Notes under the pieces: model-generated
The model's database searches: none
Told to the model about the DNA's origin: nothing
What the model saw: the letters and a program-made list of their open reading frames with translations, nothing else
Translations under genes and position numbers: made by a program
Shown: one piece after another, positions 14,419 through 36,286 of the stretch
Layout: each line of letters begins with the position of its first letter
How positions within the stretch are numbered: position 1 is the first letter of the stretch
Origin: Acidimicrobiia bacterium
GTDB taxonomy: Bacteria > Acidobacteriota > Vicinamibacteria > Vicinamibacterales > UBA2999
NCBI GenBank assembly: GCA_016871255.1
Contig: VFZH01000022.1
Span: 1 to 37,210 of the forward strand
Reading direction: 5' to 3'
DNA length: 37,210 bases

Positions 14419-14426
14419 CGCGTCGC

Positions 14427-14495
14427 CAATCCGTCAATCATCAATCGTCAATCGCCAATTCAATCGTCAATCCTCAATCCCCAATCTTCAATTGT
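14427..14495. repeat. 7-base degenerate repeat array, CAATCNN type
   Basis: Ten units of CAATC or CAATT follow each other, eight spaced by two variable bases (AT, GT, GC, GT, CT, CC, TT, GT), with one three-base spacer and one missing spacer. The period is therefore essentially 7 bases. The array fills almost the whole 77-base gap between the convergent typA and ferredoxin genes and ends exactly at the ferredoxin stop codon. The same unit appears on the opposite strand at 29869-29942. Confidence 0.85.
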
Positions 14496-14846
<351 letters not shown>

Positions 14847-17264: not shown

Positions 17265-17318
17265 CCCGAAGCCCAGGCACCAAGTCCCGAACCGAATCCC
17301 AAGGCCCAAAGCCCGATG
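17265..17318. repeat. 7-base degenerate repeat array, CCCAANN/CCCGAAN type
   Basis: Eight units: CCCGAAG, CCCAGGC, ACCAAGT, CCCGAA, CCGAAT, CCCAAGG, CCCAAAG, CCCGATG. The period is 7 bases with two 6-base units. It lies between the convergent rsgA and ATPase genes and belongs to the same type as arrays at 21787, 29958 (opposite strand) and 36233. Confidence 0.8.
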
Positions 17319-21770: not shown

Positions 21771-21786
21771 ACGAGAGGGCGCAAGT

Positions 21787-21901
21787 CCCGAATCCCAGGA
21801 CCCACGCCAGATCCCAATGACCGAATCCCAGTGCCCGAGTCCCCGAACCTCCTCGGGACCTGAGCCTTTCGGCGTCTGGCTTGGGATTCGGGATTCGGGA
21901 T
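21787..21901. repeat. 7-base repeat arrays in inverted orientation, CCCGAAT type
   Basis: Left arm units: CCCGAAT, CCCAGGA, CCCACGC, (CAGAT), CCCAATG, ACCGAAT, CCCAGTG, CCCGAGT (21787-21840). Right arm on the opposite strand: TTGGGAT, TCGGGAT, TCGGGAT (21881-21901). TCCCGAATCCCA at 21786-21797 pairs perfectly with 21882-21893, so a 12-base stem is possible. Located between the MBL and cyclophilin genes. Confidence 0.8.
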
Positions 21902-21911
21902 CTGACGCCGG

Positions 21912-28777: not shown

Positions 28778-29866
28778 TCATGGTTCGTCCAGGGGCAGGC
28801 GGGCCTGGGGAGGTGACGGCGCCGGCGCAACGGCGTCGCTGTCGCAGAGGCCGTGCACGCTCGCACCCAGCAGGCGCACGGGTCGGACGCCGGCCTCCGT
28901 CTTCGCCAGCAGTACCACGGCCCGCGTCGCGATCGCGTCCGGATCGCGCGTCGGCGCCGCCGAGTGGCTCCGCGTGATGGTGGTGAAGTTGCTGTAGCGC
29001 ACCTTGATGGTGACCGTCCGGGCGAACAGGCCACGGCGTTCCAGCCACGAAGCGGCGTCGCGCGCCATGCCGTCGATCTCCGAGCGGATCCGATCGAGCT
29101 CCGTCAGGTCCTGCGGGAACGTGTTCTCGCTACCGGACGACTTCGGCTCGTGGTGGGCGACGACCGGGCGATCGTCGATGCCGTGGGACAGTTGCACCAG
29201 CCAGCCGGTCATGCTGCCGACGGCCGCGCGCAGCGTCTCCGGGTCCGCGGTACGCACGTCCACGAGCTTTTCGATTCCGCGCGCGCGCAGCTTCTTCGCC
29301 GTAACCGGCCCCACCCCCCAGAGCGCGTCGACCGGCAGCCCCTGCAGGAACGTCTCGACGCGCTCGGGCGCGACCACGGTGAGGCCGTCGGGCTTCTTCC
29401 AGCCCGAGGCGATCTTCGCCAGGAACTTGTTCGGCGCGACGCCGGCTGACGCGGTCAGGCCGGTCGTCTCGCGGATCTGCTCCTTGAGCCGTCTGGCCAC
29501 GGTGGCCCCGAGCGGTTCCCCCCAGGCGTTCTCGGTGACGTCGAGATAGGCCTCGTCGAGCGACATCGGCTCGACCAGCGGCGTGATCGCGCGGAACAGC
29601 CCGAACACCGTCTGCGACGCCGCGCGGTACCGGGTGAAGTCGGGCCGGACGACGACGAGCGATGGGCACAGCCGGAGCGCCCGCGCCATCGACATCGCGG
29701 AACGGACGCCGAACACCCGCGCCTCGTAGCTGGCCGCCGCGACAACCCCGCGCGAATCCGCAGCGCCCCCGACCGCCACCGGCTTCCCCCGGAGCGACGG
29801 GTCGTCGCGCTGCTCGACCGATGCGTAGAAGGCGTCCATGTCGAGGTGCAGGATGCGGCGAATCAT
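28778..29866 (-). CDS. dinB: DNA polymerase IV (Y family)
   Basis: A 362-residue translesion polymerase for bypass of damaged bases. Catalytic residues: Asp9 (HLDMDAFYASVE) and Asp104-Glu105 (SLDEAYLDV). The steric-gate position is Phe13 or Tyr14 in DAFYASVE. GLTASAGVAPNKFLAKIASG is the finger/palm motif, LWGVGPVTAKKL is the helix-hairpin-helix thumb, and the little-finger domain follows (about 240-345). The C-terminus QARLPLDEP looks like a beta-clamp-binding peptide. The ATG at 29866 begins the conserved N-terminus; no ribosome binding site was seen, as the 7-base array starts 3 bases upstream. dut lies upstream on the same strand, so two nucleotide/DNA-integrity genes are adjacent. Confidence 0.95.
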   Translation of the reverse strand: MIRRILHLDMDAFYASVEQRDDPSLRGKPVAVGGAADSRGVVAAASYEARVFGVRSAMSMARALRLCPSLVVVRPDFTRYRAASQTVFGLFRAITPLVEPMSLDEAYLDVTENAWGEPLGATVARRLKEQIRETTGLTASAGVAPNKFLAKIASGWKKPDGLTVVAPERVETFLQGLPVDALWGVGPVTAKKLRARGIEKLVDVRTADPETLRAAVGSMTGWLVQLSHGIDDRPVVAHHEPKSSGSENTFPQDLTELDRIRSEIDGMARDAASWLERRGLFARTVTIKVRYSNFTTITRSHSAAPTRDPDAIATRAVVLLAKTEAGVRPVRLLGASVHGLCDSDAVAPAPSPPQARLPLDEP

Positions 29867-29868
29867 TG

Positions 29869-29942
29869 AGAATTGAGGATTGCGGATTGGGGATTGCGGA
29901 TTGCGTTGGCGATTGGCGATTGGCGATCGAACTGACGATTGC
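29869..29942. repeat. 7-base degenerate repeat array, GATTGNN (CAATCNN) type
   Basis: GATTG or GATCG recurs with two variable bases (GAATTGA, GGATTGC, GGATTGG, GGATTGC, GGATTGC, then three GATTGGC-type units). It is the reverse complement of the array at 14427. Located immediately upstream of the dinB start, between dinB and dut. Confidence 0.75.
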
Positions 29943-29957
29943 GGCGTAAGGTCTGCG

Positions 29958-30015
29958 TTGGGCTTTGGGCCTTGGGCCTTGGCTTGGGATTTGGGCCTTG
30001 GGTCTTGGGATTTGG
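29958..30015. repeat. 7-base degenerate repeat array, TTGGGNN (CCCAANN) type
   Basis: Nine units: TTGGGCT, TTGGGCC, TTGGGCC, TTGGC, TTGGGAT, TTGGGCC, TTGGGTC, TTGGGAT, TTGG. The phase is exactly 7 except for one 5-base unit. It ends 9 bases before the dut stop codon, so two different 7-base families stand side by side in the 158-base dut-dinB gap. Confidence 0.85.
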
Positions 30016-33378: not shown

Positions 33379-34251
33379 TCAGCGGTCCTGACGAATCTCG
33401 GGAGACGGGAGAGTACCCGGCCCACCGGGGAAGCTGCCGCCACCGGGGAACGGGAACGGCGTGTTCAATCCGCCACCCGGTCTGCCGGGTGTGCCTGGAG
33501 TGCCACCCTGTCCCGGGAAGCCGGGAGGTCTGGCGCCGATGGCTCCAAGCTCACCGGTGACGGGCGCGCCGGGCTGCCCCTGGCCGGGGGCGCCGGCAGG
33601 GCCCTGCGCCACGAACAGGAACACCCATTCGTTGTAGTGGCTGTACCCCTCGTACAGGCGGATCGACTCCTCGGTGCTCGTGCTGGTGACGCCGATGATG
33701 CCACCGCCGCCGGCCGTCGCCGTGCCCCCGACTGAGCCTGGCCGTCCAGGCAGGTTCTGCGCCGGAGCCCCGCCGGGGTTCAGCGTGTATAGCCGCGATC
33801 CAAGCCCGCCTGGCCCAGGGCCGGTCCGCTGCTCGAGTTCCCGACGCTCGGCCGCGAGTCTCGCGTCCGGTTGTCCCGACCCCGGCATTCCCGGCGTGAC
33901 GCTCCCGCCGCCACCCGGCATCCCGGGCTGCAGCGCACCGGCCGCCTGAGCCGCCGTCAGGATCTGGAAGTTGCCACCGGTGATCGGGTCCTGGTACTTC
34001 TTGCGCAGGAACTTGCCGTCGACGAGGACGTCGATCGACGGTGGCAGCGCGCCGGGTCCCGCCTTGCGCTGGAACAGGCCGATCGCGCGCCCGTACTGTT
34101 CGCCGCGGAAGATCAGCTCGGCTTCCTTCTCGCGCCGCGCCATCTGGCTCCAGACCGGCATCGCGGCGGACGCCGCGATGCTCATGATGGCGATGGCCAC
34201 GAGCAGGGCGGCCATGGCGAAGCCGGCGGCGCGCGAACCCGGCTCGATCAT
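33379..34251 (-). CDS. Type II secretion/type IV pilus-like pseudopilin with Gly/Pro-rich tail
   Basis: A 290-residue protein. A prepilin-like leader (MIEPGSRAAG) and cut before Phe are followed by the hydrophobic helix FAMAALLVAIAIMSIAASAA. Mature position 5 is Ala instead of the usual Glu, a feature of minor pseudopilins such as GspK. REKEAELIFRGEQYGRAIGL and the DVLVDGKFLRKKYQDPITGG block are typical of type II secretion-like proteins in this group. After about residue 105 the chain is low-complexity, rich in Gly and Pro (PGMPGGGG, GAPGQGQPGAP, GTPGTPGRPGGG), with a short ordered patch EGYSHYNEWVFLFV. It may be a stalk-like tail. The ATG at 34251 is 6 bases after a TATCCT -10-like hexamer. 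Alone on the minus strand. Confidence 0.85.
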   Translation of the reverse strand: MIEPGSRAAGFAMAALLVAIAIMSIAASAAMPVWSQMARREKEAELIFRGEQYGRAIGLFQRKAGPGALPPSIDVLVDGKFLRKKYQDPITGGNFQILTAAQAAGALQPGMPGGGGSVTPGMPGSGQPDARLAAERRELEQRTGPGPGGLGSRLYTLNPGGAPAQNLPGRPGSVGGTATAGGGGIIGVTSTSTEESIRLYEGYSHYNEWVFLFVAQGPAGAPGQGQPGAPVTGELGAIGARPPGFPGQGGTPGTPGRPGGGLNTPFPFPGGGSFPGGPGTLPSPEIRQDR

Positions 34252-34296: not shown

Positions 34297-34526
34297 AAGT
34301 GGAACAGTGGAACAGTGGAAAAGTGGAAAAGTAAAGTGGGAAGTTGGAAGTCAGAAGTCGGAAGTCAGTTGAAGGTTCGAAGTAGGGCGCTGGGCCGCGG
34401 TACTCGCACTTCCCAGTGAATTCCCACTTCCCACTTCCCACTTCCCACTTCCCACTTACTTCCGACTTCTGACTTCCAACTTCCCACTTTACTTTTCCAC
34501 TTTTCCACCTTTCCACTTTTCCACCT
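34297..34526. repeat. Long inverted repeat made of 7- and 8-base units
   Basis: Two perfectly complementary 51-base arms, 34315-34365 and 34458-34508, flank a 92-base spacer. Outward the similarity continues imperfectly to 34297 and 34526. The arms consist of 8-base GTGGAAAA units and 7-base GGAAGTN units; part of the spacer holds CTTCCCA repeated five times. The element occupies most of the 294-base gap between the divergent pseudopilin and ettA genes, ending where the ettA -10-like TATCAT begins. It could extrude a cruciform or, if transcribed, fold into a long hairpin. Confidence 0.9.
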
Positions 34527-34531
34527 ATCAT
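34526..34531 (+). promoter_or_regulatory. -10-like hexamer TATCAT for ettA
   Basis: TATCAT ends 14 bases before ATG 34546, directly after the inverted repeat. The leader CGTCTCTGTCTCTG is pyrimidine-rich, without a ribosome binding site. Confidence 0.4.
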
Positions 34532-34545
34532 CGTCTCTGTCTCTG

Positions 34546-36216
34546 ATGCAGTACATCTACACCATGAAGGGCCTCGGGAAGGTGCATCCTCCCGACGCCG
34601 TCGTTCTCAAGGACATCTGGCTCTCGTTCCTCCCCGGCGCGAAGATCGGCGTCCTGGGCCTCAACGGCGCCGGCAAGAGCTCGCTCCTGCGGATCATGGC
34701 CGGCGAAGACACCGAGTTCATCGGCGAAGCGTTCCCGGCCGACGGCATCAGCGTCGGGTTCCTGCAGCAGGAGCCTCGGCTGGACGCCTCGAAGACGGTG
34801 CTCGGCAACGTCGAAGAGGGCGTCGCCCAGACCAAGGCGCTGCTTGAGCGGTACGACGCGCTGAACATGAAGCTCGGCGAGGACCTGTCGCCGGACGAGA
34901 TGGACAAGGTCATGGAGGAGCAGGGGAAGCTCCAGGACCGGATCGACGCGATCAACGCCTGGGATCTCGACTCGCAGCTCGAGCTTGCGATGGACGCGCT
35001 GCGCTGTCCGCCGCCGGACGCCGACGTGTCGACGCTGTCGGGCGGGGAGCGGCGGCGGGTCGCGCTGTGCCGGCTGCTCCTTCGCTCGCCTGACCTGCTC
35101 CTCCTCGACGAGCCGACCAACCACCTGGATGCCGAGTCGGTCGCGTGGCTCGAACGTTTCCTCAAGGACTACAAGGGCACGGTCGTGGCAGTGACGCACG
35201 ACCGGTACTTCCTCGACAACGTGGCGGAGTGGATCCTCGAGCTGGACCGCGGCTCCGGCATCCCCTGGAAGGGCAACTACTCCTCGTGGCTGGACCAGAA
35301 GCAGCAGCGGCTGGCGCAGGAGGAGAAGTCGGAGACGAAGCGGCAGAAGACGCTGCAGCGCGAGCTCGAGTGGATCCGCATGGCGCCGCGCGCGCGGCAG
35401 GCGAAAGGCAGGGCGCGTCTCAACGCCTACGAACAGCTGCTCAACGAGGACACGGCGCAGAAGCTCGATCAGGTGGAGATCTACATCCCACCGGGGCCGC
35501 GCCTCGGCGACATCGTGGTCGAGGCCCGCGGGCTCCGCAAGGGCTACGGCGACCAGCTCCTCATCGACGACCTGAACTTCACGCTGCCGCGCGGCGGCAT
35601 CGTCGGCGTGATCGGCCCCAACGGCGCCGGCAAGACGACGCTCTTCCGGATGATCACCGGGCAGGAGACGCCGGACGATGGGACGCTGCGGGTGGGCGAG
35701 ACGGTCGTGCCGGGGTACGTGGACCAGGATCGCGACAGCCTGGACGGCTCGAAGTCGGTGTGGGAGGAGATCTCCGGCGGCGAGGATGAGCTCCTCGTCG
35801 GGAAGCGCACCGTGGCGTCGCGCGCCTACGTGTCCTGGTTCAACTTCAAGGGACCGCAGCAGCAGCGGAAGGTCGGCACCCTCTCCGGCGGCGAGCGGAA
35901 CCGCGTGCACCTGGCGAAGCTGCTTCAGAAGGGCTCGAACCTGCTGCTGCTCGACGAGCCGACGAACGACCTGGACGTCGACACGCTGCGCGCGCTTGAA
36001 GAAGCGCTGGTCAACTACGCCGGGTGCGCCGTGGTGATCAGCCACGATCGCTGGTTTCTCGACCGGATCGCCACGCACATGCTCGCGTTCGAAGGCGACA
36101 GCCGCGTCGTCTGGTTCGAAGGGAACTACCAGGACTACGAGGCCGACCGCCGCCGCCGCCTCGGCGCGGAAGCCGACACCCCGCACCGGATCAAGTACCG
36201 CAAGCTGACGCGCTGA
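34546..36216 (+). CDS. ettA: ABC-F energy-dependent translational throttle protein EttA
   Basis: A 556-residue soluble ABC-F protein, the usual EttA length (about 555). EttA binds the ribosomal E site and gates translation according to the ATP/ADP ratio. Two ATPase domains: Walker [10 protein letters not shown] (38-46), signature [11 protein letters not shown] and Walker [13 protein letters not shown] in the first; GPNGAGKTT (357-365), [11 protein letters not shown] and [12 protein letters not shown] in the second. Between them lies the P-site tRNA interaction motif linker with a charged coiled coil ([20 protein letters not shown]). The arm region is present in domain 1 (about residues 95-140). 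The N-terminus [16 protein letters not shown] matches EttA directly, which fixes the start. Expressed alone behind a long inverted repeat. Confidence 0.97.
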
Positions 36217-36232
36217 CGCGCGGACGCGAAGT

Positions 36233-36286
36233 CCCAAGACCCGAATCCCGAATCCCAAGCCAAATCCCAACGCCCAAGTCCCAATG
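36233..36286. repeat. 7-base degenerate repeat array, CCCAANN/CCCGAAN type
   Basis: Eight units: CCCAAGA, CCCGAAT, CCCGAAT, CCCAAG, CCAAAT (offset by one), CCCAACG, CCCAAGT, CCCAATG. Same family as 17265 and 21787. It occupies the first part of the 140-base gap after ettA. Confidence 0.8.

Follow-up and report, generated by a model that had tools for sequence, protein, structure and literature searches.

An exact inverted repeat upstream of ettA

Within the 37,210-nt stretch of DNA analysed here (the window), the plus-strand ettA gene and a minus-strand gene that an earlier note on this DNA called a pseudopilin gene are divergently arranged, and the region between them holds an inverted repeat with the following parts.

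33379-34251, minus strand: the "pseudopilin" gene, between an M16 peptidase gene and ettA (open reading frame; synteny)
34297-34332, plus strand: outer block of the left arm, octamers AAGTGGAA/AGTGGAAA in 4.5 copies (TRF); this block is also outermost in the genome's other arrays
34329-34337, plus strand: junction AAGTAAAGT of the left arm, the same or nearly the same in the C184, C19, C45 and C31 arrays
34338-34365, plus strand: 28-nt block of the left arm, composed of four degenerate heptads that recur unchanged in the right arm (inverted-repeat comparison)
34366-34420, no strand: spacer (loop) of 55 nt, not similar to the DNA inside the gene-bearing copy at C184
34421-34457, minus strand: inner heptads of the right arm, TTCCCAC (AAGTGGG on the minus strand; TRF)
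34458-34485, minus strand: 28-nt degenerate heptad block of the right arm, exact reverse complement of 34338-34365
34486-34494, minus strand: junction of the right arm, AAGTAAAGT on the minus strand
34491-34524, minus strand: outer octamers of the right arm, (ACTTTTCC)n (TRF)
34315-34508, no strand: perfect 51-nt inverted repeat plus spacer
34502-34531, plus strand: promoter-like site of ettA (TTTCCA, 18 nt, TATCAT), its first hexamer within the right arm; assigned by consensus scan only, with a -10 position common to relatives
34546-36216, plus strand: ettA, encoding an ABC-F ATPase (TIGR03719, E 2.7e-288)

The earlier note had claimed a perfect 51-base inverted repeat, and re-comparison of the arms confirmed that 34315-34365 and 34458-34508 are exact reverse complements over 51 nt. 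Pairing continues outward to 34299/34524, which gives 67-nt arms with three mismatches, and an 88-nt version of the arms is 89% complementary; the runner-up among perfect inverted repeats of the 37-kb window with arms within 2 kb measures 18 nt. Folding of 34297-34526 is predicted to yield -143.8 kcal/mol for RNA (z -19) and -87.2 for DNA (z -18), with no shuffled sequence as stable in either case. The structure is thus a doublet of two arrays of one 7-9-bp unit, inverted so that the G-rich strands face inward. An Rfam scan of the window returned no matches.

A dispersed array family in the same genome

A sequence search of the window's own genome, a 243-contig draft, recovered about ten further arrays of this type. 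From the outside inwards they consist of four to six AAGTGGAA octamers, a AAGTAAAGT-like junction, four degenerate heptads and AAGTGGG heptads, and the degenerate block is 28 nt long in 10 of 13 arms; octamers, junction, the block of about 28 nt and heptads are common to C22, C184, C19 and C5. Close inverted pairs occur in the window and at C45, inverted pairs that enclose other DNA at C19 (an IS256-like element), C184 and C31 (genes), and single arrays at C5 and C21. The gene enclosed at C184 matches PF05635 (23S_rRNA_IVP) and TIGR02436 ("four helix bundle protein"); we refer to such genes as IVP genes. Because no PF05635 gene lies between the arrays of the window copy, just a spacer of 55 nt, we file this copy as a gene-less derivative and not as a full member of the family. 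No IVP remnant was found in this spacer, and inspection by eye of the ends of the window and C184 copies revealed no target-site duplication. The earlier note missed the membership of the repeat in a dispersed family tied to an IVP gene.

Several features of this genome are recorded alongside. Between the inverted arrays of C19, ORF reading places an IS256-like transposase gene (L012:20442-22231, in G000:C19 coordinates), perhaps an IS that inserted into a doublet spacer. The C184 element (L011) and L168 (G157:C350) lie, by reading, at the same junction of a response-regulator and a formiminotransferase-like gene in two genera, so the gene-bearing element of C184 type is old at its site. The second IVP gene of the genome (L017, G000:C78:3116-3394) has no visible arrays, and the sequence just 5' of it resembles, by eye, the start of a DUF1156-type DNA methylase. 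The window itself carries other degenerate heptad arrays at 14423-14496, 17266-17316, 21780-21903, 29865-30015 and 36204-36284, with the units CAATCNT, CCCGAAT/ATTCGGG (an inverted pair), TTGGGCC and TCCCAAA, several of them just past stop codons; these units flank neither of the IVP genes found in the genome.

Inverted arrays flank IVP genes across phyla

PF05635 genes are present in 96 of 149 genomes of the same order, and the best 30 loci mostly show 7-bp (sometimes 8- or 9-bp) tandem arrays on both sides, with a unit specific to the locus. We scored this association as tandem units of 6-9 bp within 300 bp of the gene, at IVP loci that were picked by best score and are phylogenetically non-independent. 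Among the same-order IVP genes, 20 of 28 loci had arrays on both sides, and in 17 of these 20 the two units were reverse complementary within one edit; for control PhdYeFM antitoxin genes of the same genomes the two-sided count was 0 of 28. In a named set of eighty loci, drawn from Patescibacteria, Bacteroidota, Planctomycetota, Cyanobacteria, Acidobacteriota, Pseudomonadota, Methanophagales archaea and others, arrays stood on both sides in 31 of 74, inverted in 26 of them, against a baseline in which about 10% of distant 300-bp windows hold any array. The arrays are also polar: G exceeds C in the array 5' of the IVP gene in 80 cases against 23, and C exceeds G in the 3' array in 85 against 15. 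The polarity of the window doublet agrees with that of these IVP-flanking arrays.

At three loci (L102:223-3414, L107:61-3552 and L140:976-5343), the IVP element lies within a long host ORF. No stop codon interrupts this ORF across the two arrays and the IVP gene, and the relative frame is the same at all three loci; L107 matches N6_N4_Mtase and L102, weakly, MmeI_Mtase. We know of no catalytic activity for IVP proteins.

The repeat unit tracks the IVP protein. Between loci, the units lie 3.2 edits apart where the proteins are less than 30% identical, and this distance declines steadily to 0.7 at 75-95% identity. Many of the close pairs in this trend represent one site shared by related genomes. 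Among pairs at different sites whose proteins are 60-70% identical, the unit lay within one edit in 14 of 53, compared with 88 of 4,000 unrelated pairs. Arrays of the AAGTGGAA type occur at C184-type IVP genes of other genera (L167, L168 and L172; L169 differs). Octamer arrays were found in 9 of 43 family genomes. The five genomes that have a close C184-type IVP gene are all among these nine (Fisher 1.3e-4, kinship ignored), although in one of the five, G155, the sole octamer array is the gene's own. Gene-less arrays likewise matched the IVP-flanking unit of their own genome at 3 of 4 loci in G110 and 3 of 6 in G038, two well-assembled relatives, against 0-1 for the units of other genomes.

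Array inventories were taken from 400-kb samples. G038 has 38 arrays in 400 kb compared with six IVP genes genome-wide, and their density peaks between convergent genes (0.85 per kb, versus 0.33-0.40). Two doublets of G010 that lie 25 kb apart are alike in arms and spacer (80% over 123 bp) within unrelated flanks, which means that at least one copying event has involved an entire doublet. The closest IVP pairs are found mostly at homologous sites, so movement is rare. By reading, octamer doublets of relatives (L044, L046, L047 and L051) directly follow an SRP RNA-like gene, adjoin tRNA genes or come after an rpoD-like gene.

Identity of the two arms

The arms of the other inverted pairs in the genome share 37 (C184), 32 (C19) and 20 (C45) exact bases, compared with 51 in the window, and those of nine G010 doublets share 15-24. 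As the arms are repeat arrays, agreement by chance is less remote than it would be for random 51-mers. Both window arms contain a private 28-nt block, and the chance of matching this block is about 6e-4 given the column frequencies of the genome's other arrays. By eye, each doublet had at first seemed to have arms copied from one another, an idea that testing did not bear out: similarity within loci does not in general exceed that between loci (permutation p 0.12 for the own genome, 0.42 for G010).

Of the three origins suggested in the earlier note, gene-conversion-like correction between the arms fares best, with 51 exact bases that include the private block against 37, 32 and 20 elsewhere. 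We infer that such correction, by template switch or gene conversion, is the best account of the 51-nt identity, which would have arisen later, between arms that were already inverted. That stems can be perfected when the template switches between inverted repeats is well established (PMC7202029, PMC8794818). A recent and simple local duplication-inversion, another of the suggestions, is not required because inverted pairs are a regular form of this array family.

The ettA promoter and the orthologous junction

On the basis of a consensus scan, TATCAT at 34526-34531 is a plausible -10 box of ettA, and relatives with a short region upstream of ettA carry TATACT roughly as far from their start codon. 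Since the best -35 match (34502-34507) falls inside the right arm, this arm probably overlaps the promoter of ettA. The element may lie outside both predicted transcripts, as described in the earlier note, which also placed it between two -10-like boxes. The scan found no promoter for the "pseudopilin" gene, and the right arm extends to 34524, just short of the likely ettA -10 box at 34526, which would place the -35 region of ettA inside the repeat. The "pseudopilin" gene itself (33379-34251) had no Pfam or NCBIfam match, and in several relatives M16 peptidase and ettA are directly adjacent without it.

A comparison with relatives, as the earlier note had proposed, showed that the M16-ettA junction is either array-free, at 33-60 bp, or occupied by arrays of quite different units, several of which are themselves inverted pairs (L221, L222 and L224). 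That arms pair in several genera despite their differing sequence disfavours misassembly. Since relatives have no array or different units at this junction, the window element is not conserved at the M16-ettA site, and it most likely has no conserved function there. The third suggested origin, selection for a hairpin or cruciform, is thus left unsupported by these array-free or unrelated junctions, and the stem has no terminator-like tail. The right arm may nonetheless be the present supplier of the upstream part of the ettA promoter.

Interpretation and alternatives

The window feature is, in our judgement, probably a gene-less inverted doublet of a dispersed family whose full form comprises a G-rich array of 7-8-bp units, a PF05635/TIGR02436 gene and the same array inverted. 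By analogy with REPINs, we would take it for a gene-less doublet within a family of IVP-array elements, and it resembles a mini-element of a selfish system that has so far gone unrecognised. Gene-less doublets would then be non-autonomous derivatives that the system of the IVP gene has spread, in a relationship like that of REPINs to RAYTs; this would entail both mobility of the doublets and their dependence on the IVP gene, with an IVP oligomer presumably recognising its own unit in DNA or RNA. More tentatively, and with the balance of our judgement somewhat against it, IVP genes and inverted short-unit arrays might form a selfish class that spans phyla. Each protein would be specific for a 7-8-bp unit of its own, and the heptad or STRR repeats of bacterial genomes, long without an explanation, would be gene-less offspring, the window doublet among them.

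The main competitor holds that these are ordinary heptad simple repeats, as in Xanthomonas and Nostoc, which arose and expanded by slippage, and that IVP genes simply tend to insert between or survive beside them. In favour of such an origin, with IVP genes as guests, gene-less arrays are far more frequent than IVP genes and the other heptad families of the window have no gene-bearing copy in the genome; the inverted GGGAATC pairs of Xanthomonas are, in addition, "generally" not associated with mobile elements (PMC4692102). Slippage leaves unexplained, however, why the arrays are inverted on the two sides of an IVP gene, why the unit follows the relatedness of the protein, why the same octamer-junction-heptad order recurs at unlinked loci, and why separate doublets have spacers in common, and we regard it as unlikely overall. 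A bidirectional terminator or mRNA 3'-end stabiliser, with the hairpin kept by selection, would fit the very stable predicted fold, the many doublets of relatives that lie, by reading, just past gene ends, SRP RNA or tRNAs, and the peak of G038 arrays between convergent genes. The window copy instead lies between divergent genes, at their 5' ends, and the orthologous junction of relatives is array-free or has unrelated arrays; an intrinsic terminator (a GC-rich stem followed by a U-tract) was rejected for the window stem, which has no U-tract and no terminator match. This makes a selected hairpin of this kind improbable here.

In a draft of 243 contigs, a fold-back or a collapsed short-read join could also produce inverted arms. 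We consider an assembly artefact very improbable, given the intact gene on each side, the divergence of the arms beyond 67 nt, and the doublets of similar build that recur elsewhere in this genome and in further genomes, including some at the orthologous junction. Least credible of all is a REP/REPIN system driven by a Y1 (RAYT-type) transposase, despite the shared features of hairpin-forming inverted doublets, intergenic dispersal and a resident gene flanked by repeats (PMC3116915): the gene between the arrays is PF05635, and no 6-9-bp arrays surround the genome's single Y1_Tnp gene.

We retain the gene-less IVP-array doublet as the preferred reading. IVP/TIGR02436 proteins are widespread and, to our knowledge, have no known function; the heptad repeats of cyanobacteria, Xanthomonas and Beggiatoaceae are known, without a spreading agent. 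A unit-specific inverted association across phyla would join the question of how heptads spread to that of what IVP proteins do. In the openly accessible papers searched, we found no work linking IVP genes with inverted heptad arrays, except for the heptamers of the Coxiella IVS. The repeats themselves are known and the link between IVP gene and array appears to be new, and the window feature would therefore be a gene-less member of such a class.

Relation to known repeat systems

The GGGAATC arrays of Xanthomonas are mostly intergenic and form 70-75 convergent inverted pairs per genome, for which a quadruplex role has been proposed (Rehm et al. 2015, PMC4692102). They resemble the window doublet as heptad arrays in inverted pairs, but have another unit and no reported link to an IVP gene, and the octamer block of the window has only GG runs. 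For the STRR heptads of cyanobacteria, the TAACTGA repeats and the heptads of Beggiatoaceae, "no mechanism is evident" for their spread (MacGregor 2015, PMC4679880). STRR and TAACTGA repeats are dispersed 7-bp direct repeats of patchy distribution, a description that the heptad portion of the window arms fits; they differ in their unit, occur mostly as single arrays and have no gene assigned, and the outer octamers of the window would be atypical among them.

In REPIN/RAYT systems, the REPs are short palindromes that go with a Y1 transposase (PMC3116915). These systems share with the present family the dispersed, hairpin-forming inverted doublets and a resident gene flanked by its own repeats, whereas here the repeats are tandem 7-8-mers, the gene encodes a four-helix bundle, and the genome has no array-flanked Y1 transposase. 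The protein is also akin to Avd, the accessory protein of diversity-generating retroelements, which is PF05635-like in sequence and structure (PMC10053308); the bAvd Pfam gave weak matches for two IVP proteins, but no RVT_1 reverse transcriptase was detected in the window's genome, and a reverse transcriptase was dropped as candidate mover on these grounds.

The 23S rRNA IVS of Coxiella combines an S23/IVP ORF, complementary stem-forming ends and GACAGAT heptamers beside the ORF (PMC4990558). That element lies within 23S rRNA and is excised by RNase III, whereas the window copy is gene-less and intergenic between two protein genes; from this position and the empty Rfam scan, an identity of the window copy as a 23S rRNA IVS was rejected. 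What the IVS shares with the gene-bearing elements described here is a PF05635-type gene enclosed by complementary ends and accompanied by heptamers.
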